DNA of 64,000 nt from assembly GCF_004310425.1 (NCBI RefSeq), contig NZ_SIUB01000010.1:1-64000 (forward strand), written 5' to 3'. The DNA comes from Hansschlegelia quercus (lineage in GTDB: Bacteria; Pseudomonadota; Alphaproteobacteria; Rhizobiales; Methylopilaceae). The position numbers and the translations under genes were made by a program. Below are positions 8,380 to 40,461 of this stretch, in pieces. The notes under the pieces were generated by a model. The model did not search any database and was not told the origin of the DNA. It was given only the letters and a program-made list of their open reading frames with translations. Numbering within the stretch: position 1 is the stretch's first letter; each line of letters begins with the position of its first letter.

Positions 8380-8382
8380 GGC

Positions 8383-10198: not shown

Positions 10199-10250
10199 GA
10201 CGAAGAGTCTCCGAAGAGCGCCCGACCCGGACGCATCTTTAAAGACACTC

Positions 10251-10276
10251 AGTCTATAAATTAAGTCAACTAGACT
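10251..10276. promoter_or_regulatory. Inverted repeat upstream of the SsuA-like gene
   Basis: AGTCTA (10251-10256) and TAGACT (10271-10276) with a 14-base AT-rich spacer lie in the 84-bp gap between the flavin reductase stop and the binding-protein start. Candidate operator or promoter element of the downstream ABC unit; no binding protein is known. Confidence 0.35.
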
Positions 10277-10282
10277 CTGCTG

Positions 10283-10801
10283 CTAGGTGCCTACGCAAGC
10301 CGGGAGGCTGTCGTAGCGCCGGCCGACATAGATCAGCGCGTCGCGCGGGGCGCCGCCGCCGATATGCAAGACCTCGCAGAAGAGCACCGCATGGGTGCCG
10401 ACGTCGACGACGCTCGAGATGCGGCAATCAAATGACGCTAGCGCGCCTTCGAGCACCGGCGCGCCGGTGCAAGCCGTCGTCCAGTTTGCGGCCGCGAAGC
10501 GCTCCTCGGAAGGCGTCTTGCCGCCGAACATGTTGGAGAGCGCAGTATGCTCCGGCGCGAGCGTGTTGACGCACAGACCGCCATTGGCGCGGAACGCCTC
10601 GCCGACCGAGCTGTCGCGCTTCACGCAGACGAGCAGGGTCGGCGGGCTGTCGGTGACGCTGCAGACCGCCGTCGCCGTGAAGCCGGCGCGGCCCGCAGGC
10701 CCGTCGGTCGTCACGACATTTACGGCCGCCGCAACCGTCGCCATCGCGTCGCGGTACTGGTCCTTGGTTACGGCGCCGTATGCTTCCGCGCATTGCGTCA
10801 T
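10283..10801 (-). CDS. Flavin reductase family protein (partner of flavin monooxygenase)
   Basis: 172 residues from the ATG at 10801. A much longer open frame extends upstream, but that part lies inside the monooxygenase gene in another frame. FMN-binding split-barrel reductase of the HpaC/RutF type: [38 protein letters not shown] and NTLA are family hallmarks. Such proteins use NAD(P)H to supply reduced FMN to two-component monooxygenases. It lies 47 bp downstream of the LLM-class monooxygenase on the same strand, which makes it the probable partner. Cytoplasmic. Confidence 0.88.
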
Positions 10802-10848
10802 GGCTTTGTCCGTTCGGGTCCGGGCCGGTTTCGAGGCGCCTTGGCGTC

Positions 10849-12162
10849 TCAAAACTCCAAGAGGTTGTCGCGCAGCTTCTCGTGGGCATAGGAGGTGCGC
10901 ACAAGGCCGCGCTTCTGCAGCGCGGGGACGAGCCCGTCCGCGATCTCCACGATGAACCGGCGGCTGACGCGCAGCACGGGCGTGGTGATCAGGAAGCCGT
11001 CGCCACCGACCTCCTCCATGATCTCGCCCATGCGATCCGCCACCGTGCCCGGCGTGCCGACCAGCTCCACGGAGGACACGAGCCCGCCGCCGCCATCGAC
11101 CACGAGTTCGCGGAGCGTCTTGCCGCTGCCCCATTGCTGGAACTTGTCGAGCGTGCCGGACTCGCCGTTCGTCACGAGCTTTTCGGGAATCGGCTTGTCG
11201 ACGTCGAACTGGGCGAAGTCGATCTCGGTGATGGCCGAGAGCGAAGCCAGCGTATCCACGATGAAGTGCTCGGAGCTCAGCATGCGCTCATACTTGGCGC
11301 GGGCCTCCTCGTCGGTCTCGCCGACAACCGGCGTGACGCAGAACATCACCTTGATCGTATCGGGATCGCGGCCGAGCTTTACGGCGCGTTCGCGGATGTC
11401 GTCGCGGAACTTCTTCATCTCCGCGACGCCGCTTGCGACCGAGATGATCGAATCCGCATGGGTCGCCGCGAAGTCGCGGCCCTTCGGCGAGGCGCCGGCT
11501 TGCACGTAAAGCGGCCGCCGCTGCGGCGAGGGCACCGTGTTGAGCGGCCCGCGGACCTTGTAGTATTTGCCCTCGTAGTCGATCGGATGGACCTTGGTCT
11601 CGTCGGCGTAGATGCCGGCGTCGCGATCGAGCACGACGGCGTCCGGTTCCCAGCTGTCGAACAGCTTGCCCATCACCTCCATGTATTCGTCCGCCATCTC
11701 GTAGCGCTGGTCGCGCGGCGGCAGCCGGTCCATGCCGAAATTCTTCGCCATCAGGTCTTCGGCGGAGGTCACGATGTTCCAGCCGAACCGGCCCTTGGTC
11801 AGGCTGTCGATCGTGGACGACAAGCGCGCCAGCATGAAGGGCGGATAGGCCATGGTCGACATGGTGGCGATGATCCCGAGCCGCGACGTCGCCATGCCCA
11901 TGGCGACCGCGAGCGGCGCGGGGTCGTGCTTCGGCACCATCATGCCGTGGTTGAGCGAGGCCTTGGACGAGCCGCCATAGGTCTGCGGGACCATCAGCTT
12001 GTCTTCGATCATGATGTAGTCGAAGCAGGCGCGCTCCAGCGTCTTCGCCATCTCGACATAGAACTGGCCGTCCCACGGGCTGCCGCCCTGGCCGAACGGC
12101 TCGCGCCATTCGTCGGGGGTGAAGTTCATGAACCAGGCGAGGTGAAAGCGCTTGTCGGCCAT
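10849..12162 (-). CDS. NtaA/SnaA/DszA-family flavin-dependent monooxygenase
   Basis: 437 residues; the length and pattern fit the NtaA/SnaA/DszA branch of bacterial-luciferase-like monooxygenases, which oxygenate C-N or C-S bonds with reduced FMN from a separate reductase. Visible: [10 protein letters not shown] at the N-terminus, the long Pro/Gly segment [22 protein letters not shown] near 145-155, and [21 protein letters not shown] near 235. It begins five bases after the stop of the urea-carboxylase-type ABC ATPase and precedes the flavin reductase, so transport and oxidation genes are in one operon. The substrate is unknown; an amide, nitrogen heterocycle, aminopolycarboxylate or sulfonate are all possible. 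Confidence 0.88.
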
Positions 12163-12167
12163 GTCTG

Positions 12168-13007
12168 TCAGTCCTTACGGGATGCGGCAGGCGTCGCCCG
12201 CTCGGCAGGGATCGCCTGCTCGGCAAGCGTCTTTTCGGCGGCGGCGCGCAGGCGCGCGGCTTCGAATTTCATGCTGTCGCGCACGATGCGCGGCTTGGCG
12301 CAGAAGTCGGATGTGATGCGGGCGCCGAAGCGCTCGGGCGCCTGCAGGTCCTTGCGGGGCCGGTCCACGGCGACGACGCGCGTGCCGAGATGGAAGGCCT
12401 CCATCAGATCGTGCGTGACCATCACGATCGTCATCGCCCGCTCCTCCCAGAGTTCGCGCACCAACACGTGCATCGAGCGCCGGGAGCCCGGATCGAGAGC
12501 GCCGAACGGCTCGTCGAGCAGCAGCACCTTCGGCTTGTTGATCAGCGCCTGGGCGATCGCGAGACGCTGCTGCATGCCGCCGGAAAGCTGCGCCGGATAT
12601 TTGTCCGCATGTTCGGCGAGGCCGACGCGCTCGAGCAGCGCCATCGCATCGTCCCTGAGGCTTTTGCGCTTCACCCCGAACAACCGGCCCAGCAGCGGCG
12701 AGCCTGCCCATTGCGGGCCCATCATGACGTTGCCCAGCACCGTCTTGTGCGGAAACACCGAGTAGCGCTGGAACACGACGCCGCGATCGGCGGTCGGCTC
12801 GGCCGCGATCGGCTGGCCGTCGAGCAGAATGCGTCCGCGCGTCGGACGCTCCTGGGCAAGCAGCATGCGCAGCAGCGTGGTCTTGCCGACGCCGCTCGGC
12901 CCGATGACGACCAGGAACTCATGGTCGGCGAGAGAGAAGTCGACGTCTTCCAGGACGATGTGGGCGCCATATTCCTTCCAGACGTGCTCGAAGCGGATCT
13001 CGGTCAT
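12168..13007 (-). CDS. ABC transporter ATP-binding protein, urea-carboxylase-associated type
   Basis: 279 residues. Walker A GPSGVGKTT, signature LSGGMQQR, Walker B LLLDEPFGALDPG, switch VTHD. The motifs DRGVVFQRYSVFPHKTVLGNV and the long C-terminal tail after about 215 (GARITSDFCAK) match the ATPases encoded beside urea/guanidine carboxylase genes in proteobacteria. Cytoplasmic motor for the permease at 13012-13830, four bases upstream. No carboxylase or allophanate hydrolase is in the window; the monooxygenase follows directly. The tail past residue 240 is rich in Ala/Glu and poorly conserved. Confidence 0.9.
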   Translation of the reverse strand: MTEIRFEHVWKEYGAHIVLEDVDFSLADHEFLVVIGPSGVGKTTLLRMLLAQERPTRGRILLDGQPIAAEPTADRGVVFQRYSVFPHKTVLGNVMMGPQWAGSPLLGRLFGVKRKSLRDDAMALLERVGLAEHADKYPAQLSGGMQQRLAIAQALINKPKVLLLDEPFGALDPGSRRSMHVLVRELWEERAMTIVMVTHDLMEAFHLGTRVVAVDRPRKDLQAPERFGARITSDFCAKPRIVRDSMKFEAARLRAAAEKTLAEQAIPAERATPAASRKD

Positions 13008-13011
13008 GCCT

Positions 13012-13830
13012 TCAAGCCTCCTTCAACCCGTTCCAGGGGAAGGCGTAGGCGGAGAGCTTGCGCAGGCCGTAGTCGAGCAGGAAGGCGAGCAGCGTGATCC
13101 AGACGACGTAAGGCAGGATCACGTCCATCGCGAGATAGCGGCGGACGAGGAAGATCCGGTAGCCGAGGCCGCCTTCCGCCGTTATCGCCTCCGCGGCGAT
13201 GACGAACAGCCAAGCCGCGCCGAGCGACAGCCGCACGGTGTCGATCAGGCGGGGCAGCACCTGCGGCAGCACGACGTCGAGGATCATCTGCCAAGTCGAG
13301 GCGCCCAGCGTCTGCGCCTTGATGATCTGCTCCCGCGGGATGGCGGAGACCGACAGCACCATGTCGCGCACCATCACCGGCGCGACGCCGAAGATGATCA
13401 GAATGATCTTGGACGCTTCGCCGAGGCCGAAGGCGATGAACAGGATCGGCAGCACCGCGAGCGGCGGGATGAGCGACAGCGCGGCGACGATCGGATCGAA
13501 GGTCGCGCGCAGATAGGGGATGAAGCCGATCAGCACGCCGAGGACGAGGCCTATCGCGGCCGAGATGCCGAGCCCCGCGCCGAGACGCGCGAGGCTGAGC
13601 CAGGTGTCGTACCAGAACAGCGGCTGGCCCGCGGTCGGATCGACCCGCCCGATCAGCCGCGCCATCGCCGCATAGAACGACGAGATCGCGGGCATGATCT
13701 TGTCGCCGGGATTGGCGGCGAGCCGCGCGTCCGAGGCGATGAGATAGGCCGCGATCGCGATCGCGATCGGAAGCGCGCCCAGCGCGATCCGCGCGGTCGT
13801 GCTCGGGTGATAGTTGACGATGCGCCGCAT
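13012..13830 (-). CDS. ABC transporter permease, urea-carboxylase-associated type
   Basis: 272 residues, six or so hydrophobic segments, BPD_transp_1 fold. The stretches DPIVAALSLIPPLAVLPILF, REQIIKAQTLGASTWQ and RIFLVRRYLAMDVILPYV closely resemble permeases annotated with urea-carboxylase-related importers, a family proposed to carry guanidine-like compounds. It is encoded 23 bp after the binding protein and four bases before the ATPase, so the three form one importer. The specific solute cannot be read from the sequence. Confidence 0.9.
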   Translation of the reverse strand: MRRIVNYHPSTTARIALGALPIAIAIAAYLIASDARLAANPGDKIMPAISSFYAAMARLIGRVDPTAGQPLFWYDTWLSLARLGAGLGISAAIGLVLGVLIGFIPYLRATFDPIVAALSLIPPLAVLPILFIAFGLGEASKIILIIFGVAPVMVRDMVLSVSAIPREQIIKAQTLGASTWQMILDVVLPQVLPRLIDTVRLSLGAAWLFVIAAEAITAEGGLGYRIFLVRRYLAMDVILPYVVWITLLAFLLDYGLRKLSAYAFPWNGLKEA

Positions 13831-13853
13831 CGGCTTCCGCCCCCGCCGGCCCG

Positions 13854-14939
13854 TCAGAGCTTCCCGTCGGCCGCGAGCTTGGTGAAAGTCGGGTCGATGC
13901 GAATGCGGATGTTCTTCTCCGATCCGAGCACCGATCCATCGCTCATCTGGATGCCGATCGCGTCGACGCTGTCGGCGCCCTGGCCATAAAGCCCCTGCTC
14001 GAAGCAGAAGGTGCGGACGTAGTTCCAGATCTCCTTGGTCTTCGCGGCGGTCAGGAAGGCGTGCGCCTCGACCGGCGAGAGGAAGAAGTGCGTGGTGTCC
14101 ATCTGCGTCTTAAGGCCCGCCTCGTCGGTGTTGAGGGCGGCCGCCATCACGGACTTCACCTCATCGGCCTTGGCCCCGCCTTCCTTGAGGTGGCCGAGGG
14201 CCTCGTACCAAGCGCCGGTGAAGGCCTTGCCGAAGTCGGGATTGTCCTTGAGCGTCTCGGTCTTGGCGACGAAAACGTCCATGATCTCGCCGGGGATCTG
14301 CGAGCTGTCGAAGATGATCTTCGAGCCCTGAGCGCCCTTCAACATGTCGGGGATCATCGGCTTCCACGAGACCGCGTGCTCCATCTGCGGCTGGCTGATG
14401 AAGGCGGCGGAGATCTCGGCGTCGGAGATATTGGTGGTCTTGACCGCGCCGACGCCCTTCATGCCGTTGATGATAAGCGCGCGGTTCAACAGGTAGTGCG
14501 AGACGCTGTACTGCAGCAGGAAGATGTCCTTGCCCTCGAGCTCCTTCACCGACTTGGCGGTCTTCGAAACGATGGCGTCGTTTCCGTTGGAGTAATCGCC
14601 GATCAGGAAGAGCGACGTGTCCACGCCGCCAGCGGCGGGCATCACCAGCTGGTCCATGTTCGCCATGGCGAAGGCGTCGAGGTCGCCGGCGATGAACTGG
14701 TTGATCCCCGCGACATAGTCGTTGATCTGAACGATCTCGACCTCAATGCCGTATTTGTCCGCCCAGCGCTTCATCGTGCCGGAGCTCTTCAGCCACTCCA
14801 GCGGCTCGAAGCCGACATAGACGGAATAGCCGATCTTGAAGGTCTTCTTCGCGGCGGCCTCGGCCGGTAGGGACAGCGCGGCGAAGGCGCCGATGCCGAT
14901 CGCGAGGCCGAGGGCGAGAAAGCGCAGGAAACGACGCAT
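13854..14939 (-). CDS. ABC transporter substrate-binding protein, urea-carboxylase-associated type
   Basis: 361 residues from the ATG at 14939, which begins a clear signal peptide (MRRFLRFLALGLAIGIGAF ending in an Ala-rich site near 29). The mature part contains YSVYVGFEPLEW, WADKYGIEVEIVQINDYV, DAFAMANMDQLVMPAAGGVD and GDYSNGNDAIVSK, the hallmark segments of periplasmic proteins paired with urea/guanidine-carboxylase-type importers. First gene of the leftward operon and divergent from a TetR gene; an 18-bp palindrome at 14979-14996 lies between. The open frame extends far upstream, but that part runs antisense through the TetR gene. Confidence 0.9.
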   Translation of the reverse strand: MRRFLRFLALGLAIGIGAFAALSLPAEAAAKKTFKIGYSVYVGFEPLEWLKSSGTMKRWADKYGIEVEIVQINDYVAGINQFIAGDLDAFAMANMDQLVMPAAGGVDTSLFLIGDYSNGNDAIVSKTAKSVKELEGKDIFLLQYSVSHYLLNRALIINGMKGVGAVKTTNISDAEISAAFISQPQMEHAVSWKPMIPDMLKGAQGSKIIFDSSQIPGEIMDVFVAKTETLKDNPDFGKAFTGAWYEALGHLKEGGAKADEVKSVMAAALNTDEAGLKTQMDTTHFFLSPVEAHAFLTAAKTKEIWNYVRTFCFEQGLYGQGADSVDAIGIQMSDGSVLGSEKNIRIRIDPTFTKLAADGKL

Positions 14940-14978
14940 CGCAGGCTCCTGGAACGGCGCGCCGGGGTCGACGGCGCT

Positions 14979-14996
14979 ATTAAACGCGTGTTTAAT
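14979..14996. promoter_or_regulatory. Probable TetR operator in divergent promoter
   Basis: ATTAAAC, four bases GCGT, then GTTTAAT: perfect 7-bp arms, AT-rich within a GC-rich genome, 39 bp from the binding-protein start and 48 bp from the chosen TetR start. Position and symmetry fit autoregulation by the neighbouring TetR protein together with control of the importer operon. Confidence 0.6.
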
Positions 14997-15044
14997 ATGA
15001 ACGAAGGCGCAGTCATTGTGCAGCGCAAAATTTGGGCGCCGAAA

Positions 15045-15737
15045 ATGGCTCGACAGTCTGGAATCAGAAGGGCGGCGCCTCAGTCGAATGCGCGGCCTGC
15101 GCACGCCGCGCGCAGCCTGGATGCGTCGACGAAAGGGGTCGCGCGCCGCCGGCTCGCGCCGGCCGAGCGCACCGAACTGATCCTCGACGGCGCGCTCAAG
15201 CTGTTCGCTGAACGGCACTACAGCACGGTCACCGTGCGCGATCTCGGGCTCGCCTGCGGCGTAAACCCGGCGCTCATCTATTATTACTTCGAGAGCAAGG
15301 AGCACCTGTTCGCCCAGGCGCTCGGCCACGCCATCGGCCAGCTCAACGCGGGCTATGCGGAGGCGAGCTCCGGCGGAGACGCCCGATCCCAGATCATGGC
15401 GTGGCTCGACATGCACGCCTCGATCGCGCCGACGCTGGTGCGCATGACGAAGCTCATGAGCGACTACGCCCCTAGCCGCCGGAGCGAGGATGCCGCCGCG
15501 GCGCTGATCGCGCAGTTCTACGCCCGCGAGCAGGCCCTCTTGGAGGACTGCATCGGACGCGGGATCGCCGCCGGCCAGTTCCGCGCGGTGGACGTCACCA
15601 AGACGGCGCGAGCGATCAGCCTCCATCTCGACGGCATCTTCTTTGCGTCCACGGCGCGCGGCGACGACCGCATCGCGGCCGACATCGAGGATTTGCGCGG
15701 GCTGGTCGCGGAGCTCCTCGACAAGTCCGTCGCCTAA
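15045..15737 (+). CDS. TetR/AcrR-family transcriptional regulator
   Basis: 230 residues from the ATG at 15045; in-frame GTG (14988) and ATG (14997) exist upstream, but the first lies inside the operator palindrome. N-terminal helix-turn-helix at about residues 38-84 (RTELILDGALKLFAERHYS, then VRDLGLACGVNPALIYYYFESKEHLF); the first 35 residues are a basic unstructured tail. The C-terminal ligand-binding helical domain has no informative motif. The domain layout resembles RutR-type regulators. Divergent from the ABC-monooxygenase operon and 32 bp upstream of the isochorismatase-fold hydrolase, so it probably controls both directions in response to the imported substrate. Confidence 0.85.
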   Translation: MARQSGIRRAAPQSNARPAHAARSLDASTKGVARRRLAPAERTELILDGALKLFAERHYSTVTVRDLGLACGVNPALIYYYFESKEHLFAQALGHAIGQLNAGYAEASSGGDARSQIMAWLDMHASIAPTLVRMTKLMSDYAPSRRSEDAAAALIAQFYAREQALLEDCIGRGIAAGQFRAVDVTKTARAISLHLDGIFFASTARGDDRIAADIEDLRGLVAELLDKSVA

Positions 15738-15769
15738 GCCTGCCGAAAGCCATTTCGACGAGATCGCCG

Positions 15770-16462
15770 ATGACGTCCTGGAAGACCGCCTACCGCTCGC
15801 TCTATTACGAAGGCGCCCCGGAGCCGCCGGACCCGATCCTCGTGAAGGGAAAAACGGCGCTGCTCGTGATCGACGTGCAGAACACCTATTTCGAGCGGCC
15901 GGATCGAGCGTCCCTATCGGGCGCCGAACGCGCCCGCTACGACGCCTGGACGCCGTTCCACGAACGCATGGCGGGTACGGTGATGCCCACCATCCAGCGG
16001 CTGCTGCAGCGCTTCCGTGACGGCGGCCTCGAGGTGATCTACGCCCGCATCGCCTGCCAGACGGGCGACGGCCGCGATCGCTCGCTTAGCCAGAAAAAGC
16101 CAGGCTGGAACGACCTGCTGCTTCCCAAGGACGAGCACGCTTCGCAGATCCCAGCCTCGATCGCGCCGAAGCCTGACGAGATCGTGGTCATCAAGACCAC
16201 CGACAGCGCGCTGACCGGCACCAACCTCAGGCTGACGCTGACCAATATCGGGATCAGCCACGTGATCTGCTGCGGCGTGTTCACCGATCAATGCGTCGCG
16301 TCGACCGTCCGCAGCCTCGCCGACGAGAGCTTCGACGTGATCGTGGTGGAGGACGCCTGTGCAGCGGGCGACCACGCGCTTCACCTGAAGGAGCTCGAGA
16401 TCATGAACATGATCTACTGCCACGTGATGAGCGCGGACGAGCTGATCGGCTATTTGCCTTAA
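15770..16462 (+). CDS. Isochorismatase-superfamily cysteine hydrolase (amidohydrolase-like)
   Basis: 230 residues. The superfamily Asp-Lys-Cys triad is visible: D35 in LLVIDVQNTYF, K142 in VIKTTDSAL and C175 in TDQCVASTVR. Members include nicotinamidase, ureidoacrylate hydrolase RutB, N-carbamoylsarcosine amidase and biuret hydrolase; all hydrolyse an amide or carbamoyl bond through the Cys. The neighbours (FMN-dependent monooxygenase, flavin reductase, urea-carboxylase-type importer, TetR) fit a role in cleaving an amide product of the oxygenase, but the substrate is not identifiable. Same strand as the TetR gene with a short gap, so probably co-transcribed; followed by a REP-like repeat. 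Confidence 0.87.
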   Translation: MTSWKTAYRSLYYEGAPEPPDPILVKGKTALLVIDVQNTYFERPDRASLSGAERARYDAWTPFHERMAGTVMPTIQRLLQRFRDGGLEVIYARIACQTGDGRDRSLSQKKPGWNDLLLPKDEHASQIPASIAPKPDEIVVIKTTDSALTGTNLRLTLTNIGISHVICCGVFTDQCVASTVRSLADESFDVIVVEDACAAGDHALHLKELEIMNMIYCHVMSADELIGYLP

Positions 16463-21454: not shown

Positions 21455-22414
21455 TCAGCGGAGCGCGCGGTTGTGCAGCATCCGGCCGATGAGGTTGAGC
21501 AGCACTTGCGCGGCGAGGATCGAGGTGACGCCCGCCGGGTCATATTCGCGGGCGACCTCGACGAGGTCGACGCCGACCACCTCGCCCTGCTTGGTCAGGC
21601 CGTCGAGCAGCTCCAGCACCTCGTAGTACTGGAAGCCGCCATGGCTCGGCGTGCCGGTGCCGGGCGCGATGGACGGGTCGAAGCCGTCGATGTCGATCGT
21701 GACGTAATAGCGAGCCCCGGCCGGGATCCGCGCCAGCACGGCCTCGACGCCGAGCTTGCGGATCTGCCGGACGGACAGGATGTCGGAGCCCATGGCCCGC
21801 GCGTCCTCATAGCCTTCGCGGGCGGTGGACGAGACGTTGCGGATGCCGAGCTGCGTCAGGCCGGTGACGTAATCCCGCTCCGCCGCGCGCCGCATCGGAC
21901 TGCCATGGCCGTAGCGGACGCCGTGGCGCTCGTCGACGAAGTCGAGATGGGCGTCGAACTGCACGAGATGGATCGGCGCTTCGTCGGAAAAGGCGGCGAT
22001 GCAGGGGATGTTGACGGAGTGGTCGCCGCCGAGCACGACCGGGATCGCGCCGGCCTTCAGAATCGTCCGGACCGCCGTCTCGATATTGGCGTGGCTGCGG
22101 ATCGTGTCGGTATGGATCATGTCGGCGTCGCCGAGATCGACGATCCGGGCCTTGCCCGCCTCGAGATAGACGACGTCGTCTTCGTGGTCGTAGGCGCCGG
22201 AATGACCGAAGGCGAACAGGGTTGAGGCCTCGCGGATCGCCCGCGGTCCCGACCGCGCGCCTGAGCGCCATTGCGTGCCGAGATCGAACGGCGCGCCGAG
22301 GATGCAGACGTCCGCGTCAATCCGGTCCCAGTCGAGCTGCAGCGGATATTTGCCGAAGGTCGCGACGCCGACGAAGGGCAGATCGAGGCGCCCGCTTTCG
22401 TAGCCGTGGGCCAT
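21455..22414 (-). CDS. Arginase/agmatinase-superfamily ureohydrolase, paralog 1
   Basis: 319 residues. Binuclear-metal amidinohydrolase fold; all metal ligands are visible: H132 (GGDHS), D154, H156, D158 (DAHLD) and D241, D243 (DIDGFDP). Family reactions release urea from a guanidino group (agmatinase, guanidinobutyrase, guanidinopropionase, guanidine hydrolase). Last gene of the creatininase operon, two bases after its paralog. The specificity loop GHGSPMRR differs from the paralog's HGTPFRR, so the two probably differ in substrate or form a mixed oligomer. In this context creatine, guanidinoacetate or methylguanidine are candidate substrates; none is proven. Confidence 0.88.
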   Translation of the reverse strand: MAHGYESGRLDLPFVGVATFGKYPLQLDWDRIDADVCILGAPFDLGTQWRSGARSGPRAIREASTLFAFGHSGAYDHEDDVVYLEAGKARIVDLGDADMIHTDTIRSHANIETAVRTILKAGAIPVVLGGDHSVNIPCIAAFSDEAPIHLVQFDAHLDFVDERHGVRYGHGSPMRRAAERDYVTGLTQLGIRNVSSTAREGYEDARAMGSDILSVRQIRKLGVEAVLARIPAGARYYVTIDIDGFDPSIAPGTGTPSHGGFQYYEVLELLDGLTKQGEVVGVDLVEVAREYDPAGVTSILAAQVLLNLIGRMLHNRALR

Positions 22415-22416
22415 TG

Positions 22417-23376
22417 TCAGGTCCCCCGCGCGGCCACGTGGTCGGCCAGCACGCAGAGCAGCTCGAACATGATGGTCGCCCCCGTCATCGCAGTCAGCCC
22501 CGACGGGTCGAACGGCGGCGCGACTTCGACGAGGTCGGCGCCGATCACGTTCAGACCGGAGAGCTTGCGCACCATCGCCTGCGCCTCCCGGGTCGTGAAG
22601 CCGCCGATTTCCGGCGTGCCGGTGCCGGGCGCCTGGGACGGGTCGATGCCGTCGATGTCGAAGGTGACGTAGGTCGGCTTGTCGCCGAGGATCTCGCGCG
22701 CCTCCGCCATCACGTCGTCGACGCCGCGGGCGCAGAACTCCTCCATGAAGATCGTGCGCACTCCCGCGTCGCGCGCGAAGTCGAAGTTCCTGGGATCGCC
22801 GATCGAGCCGCGGATGCCGATCTGTACGAACCGCTTCGGGTCGATCAGCCCTTCCTCGATCCCGCGGCGGAACGGCGTGCCGTGATTGTATTTCTGGCCG
22901 AAGAATTCGTCATAGGTGTCGGAATGCGCGTCAAACTGGATGAGGCCGACTGGCTCCTCCGGTTTCAGCCCCCGCAGGATCGGCAGGGTGATGAGGTGGT
23001 CGCCGCCGCCGGTCAGCGGAAGCGCGCCGGCCGACTTGATGCGCGCATAAAACCCCTCGATGAGCGAAAGATTCTCCATCAGATCGAGCGGGTGCACCGG
23101 CGCGTCGCCGCAATCGGCGACCCGCGCGGCGTCGTAAGGCGAGCGCCACGTCGTATGATTGTAGCGGCGCATCAGCGAGGACTGGTTGCGCAGCTCCCGC
23201 GGCCCGTGGCGCGTGCCGGGTCGGTTCGTCACCGCGATGTCGAACGGCACGCCGACGATCGCGATGTCGACCTCCTCCGGCGCCATCACCGGCAGGCGCA
23301 TGAAGGTCGACATGCCAGCGAAGCGCGGAACGGCGCCGCTGTCGAGCGGTTCGGGATGAGCGGGTGCGTCGCTCAA
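22417..23376 (-). CDS. Arginase/agmatinase-superfamily ureohydrolase, paralog 2
   Basis: 319 residues when started at the TTG at 23376. This TTG overlaps the creatininase stop (TTGA), has GAGGAAGGAA seven or so bases upstream, and gives exactly the length of the neighbouring paralog; the longer reading from 23436 would overlap creatininase by 64 bases. Metal ligands are complete: H127 (GGGDHL), D149, H151, D153 (DAHSD) and D240, D242 (DIDGIDP). Closer in pattern to guanidinobutyrase/guanidinopropionase-type enzymes (HGTPFRRG, DPSQAPGTGTPE). Direct coupling to the creatininase gene makes it the leading candidate for removing urea from creatine; this is inference. Confidence 0.88.
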   Translation of the reverse strand: MSDAPAHPEPLDSGAVPRFAGMSTFMRLPVMAPEEVDIAIVGVPFDIAVTNRPGTRHGPRELRNQSSLMRRYNHTTWRSPYDAARVADCGDAPVHPLDLMENLSLIEGFYARIKSAGALPLTGGGDHLITLPILRGLKPEEPVGLIQFDAHSDTYDEFFGQKYNHGTPFRRGIEEGLIDPKRFVQIGIRGSIGDPRNFDFARDAGVRTIFMEEFCARGVDDVMAEAREILGDKPTYVTFDIDGIDPSQAPGTGTPEIGGFTTREAQAMVRKLSGLNVIGADLVEVAPPFDPSGLTAMTGATIMFELLCVLADHVAARGT

Positions 23377-24146
23377 AGTCCGAATTCCTTCCTCACCGCC
23401 GCGGTGATCAGCGCGACATGGTCGTCCATCAGCCACTGGCCCTTTTCCGCACTCGACCCGTGAGCGACGGCGAGCACGCCGGACGCCGGGCCGAAGCCCC
23501 TCGGCGTCGGCCAGATGTCGTAGGTCGGGAATTGCGCGGGGCCGTCCGAGGGGACCTTGTCCATCTCGACGAGATCAGGCCGTAGCAAAAGCATCAGCGA
23601 GGTCTCAAGCAGGCTGGCGTGCTCGAGCTCCGTGCCGGGGAAGCCGTCCGGGAACAGGCGGTCGAGCGTCTCGCGGCGCACGAAGTCCCAATATTCCAGC
23701 CGCATGGCTTGCATGTCCGCGATCCCGTCGCGGCGGAGCTCGCGCAGGCCGAGATCGAGACCTTCGACGGACGGCCACATGTTCTCGTAGTGGCCGATCA
23801 CGAGTACGATCCTGCGCACCCCGTCACGACCGAGGCCGCGGATGACATCGCGGATCACGAGCGAAAAAGTATGCGCGTCGAGGCTGGTCGTGCCCGGAAA
23901 CGCCTCGCCGCCGCCCGACCGCGGCATCGATTTGCAGCCGTAGGGAATGCACGGCGCGACGAGGCCGCCGACCTCCCGCGCCACGCGCTCGCAGACGCCG
24001 GTCGGCAGCACGACGTCGACGTTCATCGCCATGTGCGGACCGTGCTGCTCGGTGGCCCCGAGGGGCAGGAAGACCGGCGCGCCAGCCTTCACCTTGGCTT
24101 CGTATTCCGGCCAGCTCAGTTCGGCCATGAAGACGCTGTCGACCAT
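23373..24146 (-). CDS. Creatininase (creatinine amidohydrolase)
   Basis: 257 residues. Interconverts creatinine and creatine; hexameric binuclear Zn/Mn enzyme in characterised pseudomonads. From memory the sequence aligns nearly end to end with Pseudomonas creatininase: SVFMAELSWPEYEAKV, EQHGPHMAMNVDVVLPT, SGGGEAFPGTTSLD, GHYEN, YWDFV and LEHASLLETSLML. Metal ligands correspond to E33, H35, D44, H119 and E121. This is stronger than the general creatininase family, which also contains MftE and deformylases. Ten bases after an SDR gene and overlapping the TTG start of ureohydrolase 2, so it is in the middle of the operon. No M24-family creatinase is present nearby. Confidence 0.9.
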   Translation of the reverse strand: MVDSVFMAELSWPEYEAKVKAGAPVFLPLGATEQHGPHMAMNVDVVLPTGVCERVAREVGGLVAPCIPYGCKSMPRSGGGEAFPGTTSLDAHTFSLVIRDVIRGLGRDGVRRIVLVIGHYENMWPSVEGLDLGLRELRRDGIADMQAMRLEYWDFVRRETLDRLFPDGFPGTELEHASLLETSLMLLLRPDLVEMDKVPSDGPAQFPTYDIWPTPRGFGPASGVLAVAHGSSAEKGQWLMDDHVALITAAVRKEFGL

Positions 24147-24156
24147 CTTGATCCCC

Positions 24157-24867
24157 TCAGTGCATAGCGGCGCCGCCGTCGACGCTCACGCACTGCCCCG
24201 TGGTGAAGGTCGTCCGGCGGCTGGTCAGGAAAAGGATCGCCTCGGCCACCTCTTCGGCACGGCCGATCCGGCGCATCGGATTCAGCGTTTCGAGCGCCTG
24301 CTGCTCGGGCGTCATCGCGGCGAAGTTCAGCAGCGGCGTGTCGATCGGCCCCGGCGCGACCGCGTTGACCAGCACCTTCGGCGCGAGCTCCCGCGCCCAG
24401 GAGCGCGTGAGCGCGAGGATGGCGCCCTTGGTCGCGCAATAGCCCGACGCGCCGGCGCGGCCGAGATAGCCGAGCTCGGAGGCAATGTTGACGATGCGCC
24501 CCCCGTCTTCACCGAAGTGCTTCAGCGCCTCGCGAGCGATAAGGATCACCCCGCGCACGTTGACGGCGACCATGCGGTCGAACGCGGCGAGGTCGAAGCG
24601 TTCGAGCGGGCTTTCGAGATCGAGACCGGCGGAGCTCACGACGGCGTCGAGCCCGCCGAGCGTCTTGGAGGCCTCGGCCATCGCGGAAACCACCTGAGCC
24701 TCGTCGGCGAGGTCGCACGCGACCATCGGGAATGCCGAGGATATCGGCGCGATGTCGAGGCCCACGACCCTTGCGCCTTCTTCCGTGAGCCGCATTGCGC
24801 CGGCTCGGCCGATCCCGCTCGACGCCCCCGTGACGACGACGCGCAGCCCCTGATGCGGGCTCACCAT
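24157..24867 (-). CDS. SDR-family NAD(P)-dependent oxidoreductase
   Basis: 236 residues from the ATG at 24867, which overlaps the end of the upstream SDR gene by seven bases (ATGGTGA). Classical short-chain dehydrogenase: cofactor motif TGASSGIG at about 13-20, catalytic Ser-Tyr-Lys in ASELGYLGRAGASGYCATK, and PGPIDTPLL after it. The usual NNAG is SSAG here. Acts on an alcohol or ketone with NAD(P)H. Its place between the importer and creatininase in the same operon is unusual for creatinine catabolism; the substrate is unknown. Confidence 0.85.
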   Translation of the reverse strand: MVSPHQGLRVVVTGASSGIGRAGAMRLTEEGARVVGLDIAPISSAFPMVACDLADEAQVVSAMAEASKTLGGLDAVVSSAGLDLESPLERFDLAAFDRMVAVNVRGVILIAREALKHFGEDGGRIVNIASELGYLGRAGASGYCATKGAILALTRSWARELAPKVLVNAVAPGPIDTPLLNFAAMTPEQQALETLNPMRRIGRAEEVAEAILFLTSRRTTFTTGQCVSVDGGAAMH

Positions 24868-25616
24868 GGCGCTTCTCCCCTGTCTGCTCCGAGGCTCTGG
24901 CCGGTGACGCTCGCCGCAAGGTCCGAGGCGAGGAACAGGTAGGAGCCCGCAACGTCCTCCGGCTCCATGAAGCCCGGCAGCGCCTGGGCCGCGACGATCC
25001 CGTCGAGAAGCTCTTCTTCCGGCCGCCCTGCCCGCTCGGCCATCCGCGTCAGGGAGCGCAGCGACGCCTCCGTTTTGACCCAGCCTGGGCAGACGGCGTT
25101 GACGTTGATCCCGCGCGGGCCGAGCTCCTTCGCCCAGGTCTTGGTCAGCCCGATCACGGCGTGCTTCGACGCGACATAGGCGCCGAACTCCGCTTCCGCC
25201 GTGCGCGACCACACCGACGCCGTGTTGATGATGCGCCCGCCGGCCGACATCTTCGGCGCGAGCGCGCGGGTCATCAGGAAAGTCCCGACGACGTTGATCT
25301 CGAGGATGCGCCGGAAGGTCGCTTCGTTCTCGGACGAGAAATCGTCGAGCGGCGTCAGCCGCTCGTAGCCGGCGTTGTTCACCAGCACGTCGAGGCGGCC
25401 GATCGAGGCGGCGAAAGCCTCGACGGCGTAGGAGTCGGTGATGTCGGCGAGGACGCCGCGCGCGCCGAGCCGCTCGGCGGCCTCGAACACGCCCTCGTCG
25501 TCTGCGAGCATCGTGAGTTCCGCGCCGGCGGCGGAAAAGGCGCGCGCGATCCCGAGGCCGATGCCTCGGCTGGAACCCGTGACGACGACCGATCGGCCGG
25601 ATAGACCCTGCAGCAT
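24861..25616 (-). CDS. SDR-family NAD(P)-dependent oxidoreductase
   Basis: 251 residues. Classical SDR with TGSSRGIG (13-20), NNAGYE near 85, the catalytic triad in SVWSRTAEAEFGAYVASK, and PGWVKTEAS. The insertion MAERAGRPEEELLDGIVAAQ before the C-terminus is longer than in the downstream SDR, so the two are not recent duplicates. One base separates its start from the ATPase stop codon, which places it firmly in the importer-creatininase operon. May act with the other SDR on a hydroxylated side-chain or precursor of the guanidino compound; inference only. Confidence 0.85.
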   Translation of the reverse strand: MLQGLSGRSVVVTGSSRGIGLGIARAFSAAGAELTMLADDEGVFEAAERLGARGVLADITDSYAVEAFAASIGRLDVLVNNAGYERLTPLDDFSSENEATFRRILEINVVGTFLMTRALAPKMSAGGRIINTASVWSRTAEAEFGAYVASKHAVIGLTKTWAKELGPRGINVNAVCPGWVKTEASLRSLTRMAERAGRPEEELLDGIVAAQALPGFMEPEDVAGSYLFLASDLAASVTGQSLGADRGEAPW

Positions 25617-25617
25617 C

Positions 25618-26403
25618 TCAGAGCTCCCCGCCGGCTGCCGCGCGCACCACGCCGATCGCCTCGCGGCGGAGCGCGAAAAAGTCGTCCCCGTCGCGCATCT
25701 CCAGCGTCCGCTCTTCGCCGAGGCGCGTCTTCACGTCGATCTCGGCGACGATCCGCGTCGGGCGCTTCGAAAACACCACCACGCGGTCGGCGAGGAACAG
25801 CGCCTCCTCGACGTCGTGGGTGACAAACACCACCGTTTTGGCGTCGCGCCGCTGGATGCGGCGGAGTTCGGCCTGGAGCTGCTCGCGCCTGAGCGCGTCA
25901 AGCGCGCCGAAAGGCTCGTCCATCAGCAGCACGTCGGCGCCGGCGGCGAGCGTGCGGGCGATCGCGATGCGCTGCCGCATGCCGCCCGAAACCTGGTTCG
26001 GATAGCTGTCGGAGAACTCGTAGAGCCCGACGAGGTCGAGATAGCGTTCCGCGCGGACCGCCTTCTCCTGCTCCGACAGGTCCTTCCGGTACTTCATGCC
26101 GAAGGCGACGTTCTGTCCGACCGTCAGCCAGGGGAAGGACGAATAGGACTGGAACACCATGCCGCGCCGCCGGTCCGGGCGGCCGACCGGCTCACCGTCG
26201 AGGCGGATCTCGCCCGAGCTCGGCTGGTCGAGCCCGCCGACCATGCGCATCAGCGTGGTCTTGCCGCAGCCGGAGGGGCCGAGGAACGCCACGAACTCGT
26301 GGCGCGCGACTTCGAGATCGAAGGGCTGCTCGACGACCTGCACGGAGCCGAACCGCTTCGTGACGCCGTCGAACACGAGATGAGGAGTTGGCGCGGTCGC
26401 CAT
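25618..26403 (-). CDS. ABC transporter ATP-binding protein, NitT/TauT type
   Basis: 261 residues from the ATG at 26403, whose first base overlaps the permease stop (TGATG). The frame stays open further upstream, but only as a shadow of the permease. Walker A GPSGCGKTT, signature VSGGMRQR, Walker B LLMDEPFGALDALRR, switch VTHD. Energises import together with the permease and binding protein upstream; probably for creatinine, creatine or a related guanidino compound, given the downstream enzymes. Confidence 0.9.
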   Translation of the reverse strand: MATAPTPHLVFDGVTKRFGSVQVVEQPFDLEVARHEFVAFLGPSGCGKTTLMRMVGGLDQPSSGEIRLDGEPVGRPDRRRGMVFQSYSSFPWLTVGQNVAFGMKYRKDLSEQEKAVRAERYLDLVGLYEFSDSYPNQVSGGMRQRIAIARTLAAGADVLLMDEPFGALDALRREQLQAELRRIQRRDAKTVVFVTHDVEEALFLADRVVVFSKRPTRIVAEIDVKTRLGEERTLEMRDGDDFFALRREAIGVVRAAAGGEL

Positions 26404-27269
26404 CACAGATACCGGAAGGCGCGGCGGTGGATGGCGCGCAGAAGTTGATCGGTGGCGAGGCCGATCACGCCGATCAGCACCACGCCGGCCATCACCTCGG
26501 GCGTCTTCATGTAGCGGCGGGCGGCCCAGATCACGAAGCCGAGCCCGCTGTCGGCCGCGACGATTTCGGCGATGATCAGATAGGTCCAGCACCAGCCGAG
26601 CGTGATGCGGAGATTATCGATGAGGCTCGGCAGCATCGCGCGGAAGGCGACGTCCTTGAGCGCCTGCGCTTGGCTCGCCCCGATCGTGTAGGCGGTCTCG
26701 AAGTATTCGTTCGGCACGCGCCGCATGTCGTCCGCGACGAGCAGCACGAGCTGGAAGAAGGTGCCGAGCCACAACAGGAAGATCTTGGTCTCTTCGCCCA
26801 CGCCAAACCAGATGATCGAGAGCGGGACGAGCGCCGGGACCGGCAGATAGCGGATAAAGTCGATCGCCGGCTCGAGCGCCGCGCCGACCGGCCGGAAGCC
26901 GCTCATCGCCATGCCGATGGGGATCGCCATCACCGCGGCCAGCAGGAACGCGCCCCAGACGCGCAGCGTCGACACCCAGGCGTGCCAAGCGAGATGCTGG
27001 GTGGAGAACATCCGGCCCATCGCCGCGAGGATCTCGCTCGGCGCGGGGAAGAACAGCGGCGTCGTCAGACCGAGCCGGGCGACGAACTCCCAAAGCGCAA
27101 GGATCGCGATGCTGGAGGCGACCGCGATCACGGCGCCCCAGGGACGGGGCAGCGCTGCGCGTAGCCGGAAGGCGCCTCCGACCGCGGAGGGGCGCCGGCG
27201 GAGGCCGGCGTCCCTTGTCGCAGGGAGGGACGCCGCATCAGGAATGACGCGTCCCTCGGTCATGCTCAC
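26403..27269 (-). CDS. ABC transporter permease, NitT/TauT type
   Basis: 288 residues from GTG at 27269 (GTGA overlap with the binding-protein stop), or 286 from the ATG at 27263. BPD_transp_1 permease with hydrophobic segments from about residue 47 on; the ATPase-contact loop is FETAYTIGASQAQALKDVAF. The first ~40 residues are odd: GRVIPDAASLPATRDAGLRR is the translation of a GC-rich palindromic stretch (27193-27250) resembling the dispersed repeats of this genome, so the N-terminal tail seems to be repeat-derived. The membrane part is intact. Confidence 0.88.
   Translation of the reverse strand: MSMTEGRVIPDAASLPATRDAGLRRRPSAVGGAFRLRAALPRPWGAVIAVASSIAILALWEFVARLGLTTPLFFPAPSEILAAMGRMFSTQHLAWHAWVSTLRVWGAFLLAAVMAIPIGMAMSGFRPVGAALEPAIDFIRYLPVPALVPLSIIWFGVGEETKIFLLWLGTFFQLVLLVADDMRRVPNEYFETAYTIGASQAQALKDVAFRAMLPSLIDNLRITLGWCWTYLIIAEIVAADSGLGFVIWAARRYMKTPEVMAGVVLIGVIGLATDQLLRAIHRRAFRYL
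27193..27250. repeat. Palindromic repeat-like segment inside a permease gene
   Basis: Two adjacent hairpins: CGCCGGC/GCCGGCG (27193-27210) and GTCCCT/AGGGAC (27210-27231), followed by GGAATGACGCG, an end sequence similar to the intergenic repeats. It is read in frame as the N-terminal tail of the permease. Confidence 0.5.
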
Positions 27270-28258
27270 TTTGCGCCGGAGACGGCGGCCATGACGGACG
27301 AGTCGATCTGCGACTTGACGTCGAGCTTGGCGTCGGCGGCCTTGTTCTCGACGTTGAGGTCCATCACCGTGTCGAAGATGGCGTAGAGCGTTCCCGGCTT
27401 GTCCGGCGTGCCGATCAGCTTGGCCGTCTCCTCGGCTCCCGTGAACGTCAGGCTGGTGTCGAAGATGCCCTTCACCTCGGCGTCGCTGAGATTGTAGTGC
27501 GGCGCGGTCGTCTTGATGAATTCGGCAGGGTCGGACTTGTAGAGTTCGACGGCCTTGAAGATGCCCTTCATGAACTTCTGGTATTTCGTCGGATTGGTCT
27601 TCAGGTCATCCTGCCGGACATCGATCACGTCGATAATGATGTCGCTATCCTTTGACGACAGCAGCATCTTGCCGTTGCGCTGCGTCTGCGAGGACACCGC
27701 CTGCGACATGAACGGCTCGTAGGTGCCGATCGCGGCGATCGAGCTGTCGGCGAACACCGCCACCGTGTCCGGCGTCATGATGTTCTTGATGTTGAGGTCG
27801 TCGAGCGTCATGCCCTCCTTCTTGAGCGCGAGCTGAAGCAGGAGGCGTGCGGGGATGTTCGGCTCCACCGCGACGGTCTTGCCCTTGAGATCCTTGATCG
27901 AGGCGATCGATCCGTCCGCGATCACGCCGTCGCCGCCGACAGACTTGTCAATCGTGCCGATGATCACGCCCGGGGTGTTCGCGTCGCGGGGACGCCCCTG
28001 GTGCTCTCCGACGGTGCGCATGTCGACTTCGATGTCGCCGCGCGTCATTGCCGCGAGAACGTTCGAGCGGTCGTCTTCGAACCGCATGTCGACGTCGAGC
28101 CCCAGTTCCTTGAAGTACCCTTTGTCGATCGCGACGAAGACCGGCGCATAGCCCGGCCAGGTCGGAGCGAGAACCCTGAGCGTGTCCGCCGCGAGGGCGG
28201 GACCCGCCGCAAGCAGACCCAGGCTGGCGACGACAAGCGTATGACGAAGACGTCCCAT
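27266..28258 (-). CDS. ABC transporter substrate-binding protein, NitT/TauT type
   Basis: 330 residues from the ATG at 28258, chosen because GGAGG lies just upstream; an alternative ATG at 28270 has no ribosome binding site. Signal peptide MGRLRHTLVVASLGLLAAG ending near A24. The mature part has APTWPGYAPVFVAIDKGYFKE, SIKDLKGKTVAVEPN and AIGTYEPFMSQA, as in taurine/nitrate/thiamine-precursor-type binding proteins; it does not resemble the aliphatic-sulfonate proteins closely. First gene of the creatininase operon and divergent from a LysR gene, so its ligand is probably the operon's substrate. Confidence 0.9.
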   Translation of the reverse strand: MGRLRHTLVVASLGLLAAGPALAADTLRVLAPTWPGYAPVFVAIDKGYFKELGLDVDMRFEDDRSNVLAAMTRGDIEVDMRTVGEHQGRPRDANTPGVIIGTIDKSVGGDGVIADGSIASIKDLKGKTVAVEPNIPARLLLQLALKKEGMTLDDLNIKNIMTPDTVAVFADSSIAAIGTYEPFMSQAVSSQTQRNGKMLLSSKDSDIIIDVIDVRQDDLKTNPTKYQKFMKGIFKAVELYKSDPAEFIKTTAPHYNLSDAEVKGIFDTSLTFTGAEETAKLIGTPDKPGTLYAIFDTVMDLNVENKAADAKLDVKSQIDSSVMAAVSGAK

Positions 28259-28332
28259 GGCGACCTCCATTCGGTGCTGGAGGGATCATTTCGCGCTTTC
28301 GCATCGACGGATATCGCTTTTGTTGGAATGAT

Positions 28333-28352
28333 ACATCGACCGACATCGATGT
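28333..28352. promoter_or_regulatory. Probable LysR operator between importer operon and regulator
   Basis: ACATCGA (28333-28339) followed, three bases on, by the perfect 10-bp palindrome ACATCGATGT (28343-28352). It lies in the 108-bp divergent gap, 14 bp before the LysR start. A repeated half-site plus palindrome is typical of LysR-type binding regions. Confidence 0.5.
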
Positions 28353-28366
28353 AAGACCAGACCCCC

Positions 28367-29293
28367 ATGGACGCCCGCCCCAAAGCCCGCATGCGCAGGC
28401 TCGACAATATCGACCTGCGGCTGCTGCGCGTCTTTCTGACGCTGGCAGAATCCGGTGGCTTCGCGGACGCGCAGATCAATCTCAACCTGTCTCAATCGAC
28501 GCTCTCGACCCACCTATCCTCGCTCGAGCGAAAACTCGGCGGTCAGCTCTGCGAGCGCGGCCGGGGAGGCTTCCGCCTGACGCCGTTCGGCGAGGCGGCC
28601 TACGCCGCGGCGCGACGGCTGTTCGACGACGTCGACGCCTTCCACGCCCGCATCGGCCGCGATCAGCAGCGTCTCGTCGGACGGTTGCGGGTCGGCGTGG
28701 TCGACGGCGTGGTGACCAATCCCAAGCTCGGCCTCCAGACTGCGTTCAGCCGCTACATGGGCTATGCGGCCGAGGTCTTCGTCGACCTCGAGCTTGGCAC
28801 CCCGCTGGAGCTCGAACAGGCGCTGATGGACGGACGGCGGGACATCGTCGTCGGCCCGTTCAGCCAGAAGGCGCCGGGCCTCGTCTATGCGCCGCTCTGC
28901 CGCGAGCCGCACGCGCTCTATTGCGGCAAAGGGCACCCGCTGTTCGAGCGACCGGACAAATCGATCCGGCACGAGGACATCGAGGAGGCGCTGTTCTCGG
29001 TGCGCCGCTACCGCCACCTCGACGACCTCTATCGTGTGAACCATCCGCGGGCGAGCGGCGCAGTGATGCATATGGAGGCCCAGACGATGCTGATCCTGTC
29101 GGGACGTTTTGTCGGCTATCTGCCGAACCATATCGGCGATCACTGGGCGGCGCGCGGCGAGATGCGCGTCATCCGCCGCGAGGGCTACGGGTTCGAATCC
29201 CAGCACTTCGTCGCGACTCGGCGGCCGAAGGGAGAGCTTCCGCTGGTCGACGCCTTCGTGGACGAGCTGAAGCGGCAGGCGGCGGAAGGCTAG
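28367..29293 (+). CDS. LysR-family transcriptional regulator of the creatininase operon
   Basis: 308 residues. N-terminal winged helix-turn-helix at about residues 15-75 (LRLLRVFLTLAESGGFADAQ, then NLSQSTLSTHLSSLERKLG) and a periplasmic-binding-like effector domain from about 100 (RLRVGVVDGVVTNPK). Divergent from the ABC-SDR-creatininase-ureohydrolase operon with paired half-sites between them, so it is the likely activator in response to the imported compound. Its TAG stop shares a CTAG with the stop codon of the convergent phnE-like gene. Confidence 0.88.
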   Translation: MDARPKARMRRLDNIDLRLLRVFLTLAESGGFADAQINLNLSQSTLSTHLSSLERKLGGQLCERGRGGFRLTPFGEAAYAAARRLFDDVDAFHARIGRDQQRLVGRLRVGVVDGVVTNPKLGLQTAFSRYMGYAAEVFVDLELGTPLELEQALMDGRRDIVVGPFSQKAPGLVYAPLCREPHALYCGKGHPLFERPDKSIRHEDIEEALFSVRRYRHLDDLYRVNHPRASGAVMHMEAQTMLILSGRFVGYLPNHIGDHWAARGEMRVIRREGYGFESQHFVATRRPKGELPLVDAFVDELKRQAAEG

Positions 29294-31618: not shown

Positions 31619-32479
31619 TCAATCCAGCAGGCCTGTCGCTTTGCCGACCTCCTCGACGGGCGCATAGGCGGCGTTGTCGACCGGGATGAACTTCGAGCGG
31701 CCGAACGGATCGAGGATCGCGCGGTCCGTCACCTCGATCAGCGCCGCCTTGAGCCTTCCCGTGAAGCCTGCGCCATATGTCTCGTCGACGTCGCCGCGGA
31801 CCGTCCACTGGTAGTCCGGGAAGGGCGGGCTCTCCCAGATGATCTTGACCTTGGCCGCATCGACCTTGCCCGCCTTCACGTCGAGATCCCAGACGGAATA
31901 ATCGACCGCGCCGACCTCGAAGGCGCCGGACTGGACGAGTTGGATGGTGCGGCTGTGGTCGCCGGAGAAGCCGACCCTTGAGAACACCTGCTCGGGCGTC
32001 TTGCCCGGAAAGGCCTGCCGGATGAAGTGCTCCGGCATCACCCGGCCGGAGGTCGAGGAGCGAGCGCCGAAGGTGAAGGTCTTGCCGGCGGCTTCCTTTG
32101 GAAAGTCAGCCGTCTTCTCGAGACCCGTCGCGGCGTTGGCGATGAAATAGGTCTTGAAGGCGGCATCCTCGGCGCCTTGCGCAAGCGCCTGTGCGCCGGG
32201 ATTGGCTTTGCGGGCCTGCACGCCGGTGAAACCGCCGAACCAAGCGAGTTGCACGTCGCCGTTCGTGAAGGCGGTGACCGCCGCGGGATAACTCTTCACC
32301 GGCAGATATTTGACCGAAACGCCGAGCTTGCCCTGAAGATACTCGGCGACCTTGGTGAACCGCTCGACCAGGCGGCTTTCGTCCTGGTCGGGGATGGCGG
32401 TGAAGACGAAGGCGGCTTGGCTGAACGCCTGACCGCAGAGCGCGAGCAAGGCGGCGAATGCGATGACGATGCGCCTCAC
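31619..32479 (-). CDS. PhnD-type substrate-binding protein (phosphonate/phosphite/oxyanion importer)
   Basis: 286 residues with signal peptide (MRRIVIAFAALLALCGQAFS). PhnD/phosphite-binding family: FVFTAIPDQDESRLVERF, YPAAVTAFTNGDVQLAWFGG, GKTFTFGARSSTSGRVMPE and DYSVWDLD. The SSTSG-type anion loop is present. First gene of phnD-phnC-phnE. Similar proteins are variously annotated for phosphonate, phosphite or selenate; no C-P lyase or phosphite dehydrogenase lies in the window, so the ligand stays open. The gene is divergent from the transglutaminase-like gene, with 228 bp between them in which no further gene is seen. Confidence 0.88.
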   Translation of the reverse strand: MRRIVIAFAALLALCGQAFSQAAFVFTAIPDQDESRLVERFTKVAEYLQGKLGVSVKYLPVKSYPAAVTAFTNGDVQLAWFGGFTGVQARKANPGAQALAQGAEDAAFKTYFIANAATGLEKTADFPKEAAGKTFTFGARSSTSGRVMPEHFIRQAFPGKTPEQVFSRVGFSGDHSRTIQLVQSGAFEVGAVDYSVWDLDVKAGKVDAAKVKIIWESPPFPDYQWTVRGDVDETYGAGFTGRLKAALIEVTDRAILDPFGRSKFIPVDNAAYAPVEEVGKATGLLD

Positions 32480-39137: not shown

Positions 39138-39191
39138 CGCTCTGTCGACGCAGTCCATCGTCCCGGCTGACGAACCGTGGACTTGGCGCAC

Positions 39192-40451: not shown

Positions 40452-40461
40452 GGCTGATCCC

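Follow-up and report, generated by a model that had tools for sequence, protein, structure and literature searches.

In a 64,000-nucleotide stretch of the Hansschlegelia quercus genome (contig NZ_SIUB01000010.1, positions 1 to 64,000; hereafter the window), we studied eight tightly packed genes on the minus strand (21455–28258) that encode an ATP-binding cassette (ABC) importer, two short-chain dehydrogenases (SDRa and SDRb), a creatininase-family protein and two arginase-family ureohydrolases (UH2 and UH1). These genes likely form a conserved operon for the use of guanidine nitrogen, and creatinine is unlikely to be its substrate. In the model that we favor, and to which we give about an even chance of being correct, the operon scavenges nitrogen from a small cyclic compound of the guanidine type that is not creatinine, with importer, SDRs, creatininase and UH2 working in series.

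The open reading frames (ORFs) and their starts confirmed the description in an original prediction, made from the sequence alone, of eight genes on one strand joined by overlaps or gaps of at most ten bases, and Pfam bore out the gene families named there. In order of transcription, the operon comprises an NMT1/SsuA-type substrate-binding protein (27266–28258; Pfam NMT1), a permease (26403–27269; BPD_transp_1), an ATPase (25618–26403; ABC_tran, with an ATG start at 26403), SDRa (24861–25616; adh_short/adh_short_C2), SDRb (24157–24867; adh_short_C2), the creatininase-family cyclic amidohydrolase (23373–24146), UH2 (22417–23376) and UH1 (21455–22414). Binding protein and permease overlap by 4 bases, permease and ATPase by 1, SDRa and SDRb by 7, and creatininase and UH2 by 4; gaps of 1, 10 (the largest) and 2 bases separate ATPase from SDRa, SDRb from creatininase, and UH2 from UH1. 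The binding protein scored 99.7 bits against TIGR01728, under the cut-off of 163.5; its PDB matches, to proteins that bind taurine or pyrimidine precursors, were weak.

What chiefly supports serial action is the gene neighborhoods of related creatininases. We took the best 80 of 174 creatininase relatives, some of them on short contigs, and counted gene labels within 5.5 kb of the creatininase CREATININASE in these related loci. The neighboring DNA examined at the 80 loci held no creatinase gene, and UH2 was found in 47 of them and UH1 in 32, so that the pairing without creatinase that the original prediction proposed to look for in other genomes does recur. UH2 shared the strand of the creatininase in all 47 loci that have it, within ∼300 bp in 42, a placement that makes the pairing more than chance; fifteen loci had UH2 but no UH1 in the 5.5-kb range. 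An SDR label was found in 76 loci, with SDRb on the creatininase strand in 69. A biuret-hydrolase-like isochorismatase was detected in 17 of the 80 loci and a weakly DDAH-like gene in four, and along the creatininase tree the label of the release enzyme changed at least five times while the company of creatininase and SDR stayed. The families to which the ureohydrolases, the biuret-hydrolase-like and the DDAH-like proteins belong work on open-chain amidino or ureido compounds, and a creatininase yields products of this kind. That arginase-, isochorismatase- and DDAH-like enzymes replace one another behind the same creatininase–SDR core thus argues for serial action, and we regard the case for the creatininase acting directly before the ureohydrolase as fairly strong.

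By curated score, the product of 23373–24146 is a creatininase (TIGR04448, 354.8 bits; cut-off 235); it belongs to a distinct branch, set apart by clade, by a gate residue and by gene company. The five metal ligands of the Pseudomonas putida enzyme (E34, H36, D45, H120 and E122), which the original prediction had already noted, are all present, as are H178 and E183. Position 174 (P. putida numbering), however, is Trp in the P. putida enzyme and Thr in the window creatininase, a change that is absent from the original prediction; the other active-site residues are kept. We take Trp174 to be a residue on the loop that closes over the substrate and to be important for activity. The creatininase of Hansschlegelia plantiphila is 95% identical to that of the window.

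Trp174 tracked the company of the gene. It was present in all 19 creatinase-linked sequences (17 loci) and in 2 of the 83 SDR-linked ones, the others carrying Thr (28), Ile (21), Phe (21), Tyr (6), Val (4) or Ala (1). One of the two (L116) has an SDR label only 29% alike and an adjoining cytosine deaminase gene, and the other (L142) comes from Embleya. Among sequences with neither an SDR nor a creatinase label, Trp174 occurred in 5 of 7, and the deposited sequence of 3a6e has Phe at this position. The creatinase-linked set drew on class genomes and on the first 24 plasmid hits, of which 22 were used and two (H7 and H22) left out, and for four unannotated plasmid records (L133, L138, L140 and L141) the creatinase label is a BLAST match. 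Left out of the residue count were the window copies (L090, L124 and L126), segments of at most 180 residues and the plasmid relative L115, whose match was confined to query residues 71–257; L128 and L129 duplicate L083 and L084. In a tree of 116 creatininases, the creatinase-linked sequences and the P. putida enzyme formed one clade (SH-aLRT 99), and the window creatininase fell into a separate clade of 48 sequences (SH-aLRT 96). This unrooted tree and those of the ureohydrolases are quick IQ-TREE runs with SH-aLRT support only and several long branches. Two further creatininase records drew our attention: a Salipiger plasmid creatininase (L122, 8001–8750) has Asn at the position of the metal ligand His120, and L087 (1423–3105) holds tandem creatininase genes, both with Trp174, with no creatinase seen in the short stretch examined.

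The two kinds of creatininase also differ in their surroundings, and they can occur together. At ten annotated plasmid loci with a creatininase and an M24 gene, the transporter was either a spermidine-type ABC system or a cytosine permease, and the stretch examined at these ten loci contained no SDR gene. Acidocella aromatica has a Trp174 creatininase whose contig also carries a creatinase and, on a different contig, a Thr174 creatininase together with SDRb; two types within one genome argue for two functions. Acidocella was the only one of 43 genomes with the SDR-linked type to have a close creatinase (64%). In eleven others, the M24 matches did not exceed 30%; those in two control genomes reached 81–82%. 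A Trp174 copy besides the SDR-linked one, again without a close creatinase, was present in six further genomes, a count that leaves out the second copies in three more (G391, G407 and G408). These genome-wide searches covered 41 of the 80 locus genomes.

The original prediction proposed searching the host genome for an M24 creatinase, and this search (3.58 Mb, 17 contigs) returned only two M24 matches, open frames of 279 and 652 amino acids that we guess from their size are probably methionine aminopeptidase and aminopeptidase P; a Shinella creatinase query found no match at E ≤ 1e-10. The genome has three arginase-family genes, including UH1 and UH2, two matches to urease alpha and two sarcosine-oxidase-type sets with soxB and soxA matches above cut-off, so that urea is probably usable and sarcosine would be no dead end. 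One of these sets is in the window (soxB/soxA/soxG, 39177–44286), preceded by a LysR gene and followed by an HTH-cupin gene; the other, on contig 3, lies beside choline dehydrogenase, serine ammonia-lyase and glycine-betaine-monooxygenase-like genes. Another candidate for a missing step was the Rieske oxygenase found in H. plantiphila; we rejected it, its best match in the H. quercus genome being 27% identical and part of a glycine-betaine monooxygenase gene on contig 3.

Both ureohydrolases have complete binuclear-metal sites, as originally predicted: the six metal ligands were kept in all 34 sequences of the UH1 set and all 49 of the UH2 set. The nearest solved structure to UH2 is 3nip, the 3-guanidinopropionase of P. 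aeruginosa (417 bits), and that to UH1 is 1wog, a Deinococcus radiodurans protein deposited as agmatinase (186 bits). Against the agmatinase model TIGR01230 (cut-off 174.3), UH1 scored 183.8 and UH2 203.3 bits, and both fell under the cut-off of 302 for the agmatinase model NF002564. Arg at the position of GbuA residue 72 was present in 48 of the 49 UH2 sequences, that of the window included, pointing to a guanidino-acid hydrolase type; in UH1 it was present in none of 34, which have Ala (17, among them the window protein), Ser (16) or Cys (1). The UH2 set takes in the third arginase-family gene of the H. quercus genome and the UH1 set a distant sequence from L144, both of which form long branches. 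UH1 sequences made up one clade (SH-aLRT 96). A study of related enzymes describes Arg72 of GbuA as coming from the neighboring subunit, capping the active site and being able to contact the substrate carboxylate (PMC9772407). With metal ligands kept in both and a difference at this position, UH1 and UH2 are not redundant copies, and since Arg72 acts across subunits, a mixed UH1–UH2 complex is conceivable.

From these observations we propose the following route. The ABC importer would bring the substrate in, and one or both SDRs would produce a cyclic amide by oxidation, starting either from a carbinol in the ring or from an alcohol whose aldehyde forms a cyclic hemiaminal with the guanidine. 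The creatininase paralogue would then open this lactam at its two-metal site to give a guanidino acid, UH2 would cleave urea from this acid and leave an amino acid, and the urea would be converted to ammonia by urease. UH1 may act on a related guanidine that lacks the same acid head group, or may assemble with UH2. A candidate chain would run from guanidinoethanol via glycocyamidine and guanidinoacetate to glycine and urea, guanidinoacetate, the alternative to creatine in the original prediction, being a possible substrate; an alternative would be a three-carbon version via 3-guanidinopropionate. The role of the SDRs, the exact ring and the role of UH1 are speculative. More tentatively still, and with the odds against it, there may be a wider catabolic route for cyclic guanidines and cyclic ureas in alpha- and beta-proteobacteria and cyanobacteria, which would combine lactam formation by SDRs, a creatininase lacking Trp174 and interchangeable arginase-, isochorismatase- or DDAH-like end enzymes, and in which a mixed UH1–UH2 complex may form, with the Arg of UH2 reaching into the active site of UH1.

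Several observations weigh against the serial model for a compound other than creatinine. The SDRa label is not universal (58 of 80 loci), homologues of all three importer genes were found in only 31 loci, and no release enzyme was recognized in 12, three of which (L053, L056 and L061) lie on a short contig or at the end of one. The labels themselves vary in quality: the isochorismatase reached 241 bits against a BiuH cut-off of 370, the DDAH-like match was weak (best PDB match 36.8 bits), and the cyanobacterial SDR label is loose, at 29–35% identity and on the opposite strand, so that it may not mark the same gene. The hemiaminal–lactam step comes from our own reasoning. On the creatininase tree there were only three changes between Trp and non-Trp and one change of company, and the clean Trp174 pattern therefore rests on few independent events. 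A TIGR04448 score so far above the curated cut-off leaves creatinine turnover possible. Furthermore, in the study cited above, a human GbuA-like ureohydrolase hydrolyzes neither guanidinoacetate nor creatine (PMC9772407), which calls for caution in deriving either compound from homology.

The reading put forward in the original prediction, that the creatininase converts creatinine to creatine, one or both ureohydrolases stand in as a non-orthologous creatinase yielding sarcosine and urea, and sarcosine oxidase completes the pathway, fits the TIGR04448 score, the kept metal ligands, the lack of a creatinase match in the genome and the two soxB/soxA-type sets, one of them in the window. Its serial logic was supported by the pairing in 47 of 80 loci and by the exchange of release enzymes; creatine as the substrate was not. 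The window creatininase has lost Trp174 and sits in a clade apart from the creatinase-linked enzymes, a creatinase-linked creatininase exists alongside the other type in Acidocella, the importer belongs to a family unlike that of the canonical loci, the SDRs, which creatinine catabolism does not need, are left unexplained, and the human GbuA-like enzyme rejects creatine (PMC9772407). We therefore consider the creatine reading unlikely. It is likewise improbable that the creatininase and the ureohydrolases are separate nitrogen-scavenging enzymes that act on different imported compounds and share only their regulation. The loci without a recognized release enzyme would suit such an arrangement, with the reservation that three of them are short contigs or contig ends, as would the difference between UH1 and UH2 at the Arg72 position, but the constant strand and close spacing of UH2 speak against it, and UH2 is swapped for other hydrolase families and not simply lost.

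Two other explanations start from different chemistry. A guanidino sulfonate such as taurocyamine might be imported and desulfonated by a flavin mononucleotide (FMN) monooxygenase to guanidinoacetaldehyde, which would then be cyclized, oxidized, opened and split. SsuA/TauA-like binding proteins would suit this, as would an FMN monooxygenase and a flavin reductase encoded elsewhere in the window (10283–12162). Further in its favor, 78–79% identical relatives of the monooxygenase adjoin creatininase–SDR genes in the Salipiger plasmid locus L122 and in Ancylobacter crimeensis (L021), an orthologue (at least 76%) is present in 19 of 41 related genomes, and 6 of 385 class genomes, that of H. quercus among them, gave matches at E ≤ 1e-150. 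Yet the enzyme resembles dimethyl-sulfide monooxygenase more closely than SsuD, an orthologue is missing from about half of the related genomes, kinship confounds the co-occurrence, and the monooxygenase gene of H. plantiphila lies on another contig than its creatininase; we think this sulfonate route very unlikely. Slimmer still is the chance that the creatininase paralogue cleaves a non-lactam bond made by the SDRs, comparable to the role for which IolN is named, with the ureohydrolases as a side branch. The SDR genes do precede the creatininase gene, and the IolN and MftE models match its product weakly (64 and 84 bits, both under cut-off), but the creatininase match is far stronger than that to IolN, and all active-site residues save 174 are kept.

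Comparison with known systems helped to place the proposed cyclic-guanidine operon. The window creatininase resembles that of P. putida (1j2t) in family, metal ligands, Trp154, His178, Glu183 and about half of its residues, and the locus differs from the P. putida creatinase pathway by having no creatinase, Thr at position 174, another importer family and added SDR genes, and by the clade of its creatininase. GpuA (3nip) and GbuA (3nio) of P. aeruginosa are the closest solved relatives of UH2 and share its metal ligands and the Arg72 equivalent; UH2 differs from them by its place behind a creatininase and SDRs, and UH1 lacks the Arg. Two adjacent arginase-fold genes in one operon also encode the metformin and dimethylguanidine hydrolase MefH/DmgH; there, hypAB chaperone genes lie alongside, and one subunit is degenerate and metal-free, lacking four of the six metal ligands (PMC11399263). 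Unlike that system as described there, UH1 and UH2 both keep their ligands, and no hypAB genes are among the eight genes of the operon. An archaeal metagenome-assembled genome (MAG) has a creatininase-like gene near a biuret hydrolase gene, much as the beta-proteobacterial loci here have an isochorismatase; this is a single MAG, and the portions seen of the report mention neither an SDR nor a ureohydrolase (PMC12625717). In the open-licence literature, we found no paper on a creatininase–ureohydrolase pairing.

Members of this branch score as creatininases, and two of its plasmid copies are annotated as such. As the branch is separate, lacks the gate residue and had a creatinase gene in none of the 80 loci, annotations of creatinine use that derive from such members may be wrong. 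If the serial model holds, it would give a short list of enzymes and small compounds and add a natural route for guanidine nitrogen. Unrelated hydrolase families that stand in for one another at a single step would clearly exemplify non-orthologous replacement.

At 28 of the 80 related loci we found oxygenases, variously of the Rieske, desaturase-fold, FMN and FAD types, and in three loci (L003, L005 and L031) the creatininase and UH2 are separated by a Rieske oxygenase gene; we treat oxygenation as an optional entry step. In Methyloligella (L044, 10001–14381), the genes that come after the creatininase encode a Rieske oxygenase and ethanolamine ammonia-lyase (eutB and eutC). Two cyanobacterial loci (L073, 15464–18727; L063, ∼10200–12300) have a second, distant creatininase-family gene flanked by two weak matches to Rieske oxygenases. 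On a plasmid of Ensifer adhaerens OV14 (L144, 1430–8759), an unannotated creatininase relative (39%) lies near two genes annotated as speB-type, possibly an independent creatininase–ureohydrolase pairing.

Upstream of the operon, a divergent LysR-type regulator gene (28367–29293, plus strand; Pfam HTH_1 and LysR_substrate) is separated from the binding-protein gene by 108 bases, which contain a palindrome of 8-base arms and a 6-base spacer (28332–28353) as a possible LysR operator. Its score was matched by 7 of 300 shuffles, and we judged the best palindrome to be similar in 8 of 16 relatives scanned (L004, L005, L009, L010, L012, L016, L017 and L047). At gathering thresholds, an Rfam scan of the window returned only the ffh sRNA, and we rejected a guanidine riboswitch as a clue to the inducer. 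Directly downstream of UH1 lies a SoxYZ-type gene, which we thought of as a sulfur clue and set aside.

The FMN monooxygenase gene (10849–12162, minus strand) encodes a member of the NtaA/DmoA family (TIGR03860, 428 bits, above cut-off) that may be a linked entry step, the link being weak. The same holds for the RutF-like flavin reductase beside it (10283–10801, minus strand; TIGR03615, 238.8 bits against a cut-off of 254.75). Together with an importer, the pair occupies 10283–14939, ∼6.5–11 kb beyond UH1. It is part of a second transport and oxygenase module (7636–16462) with a TIGR03427 'putative urea' ABC importer, SsuABC-like importer genes, an isochorismatase and a small plus-strand gene that resembles one beside the SDR genes of L021. 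Within this module, the SsuA-like binding protein at 9210–10198 is short (231 amino acids, spanning roughly the N-terminal two thirds of the family model) and is followed by a 99-amino-acid ORF, as if the frame were broken. Elsewhere in the window, a binding protein at 31619–32479 scored above the cut-off for TIGR04553, a putative selenate ABC transporter.

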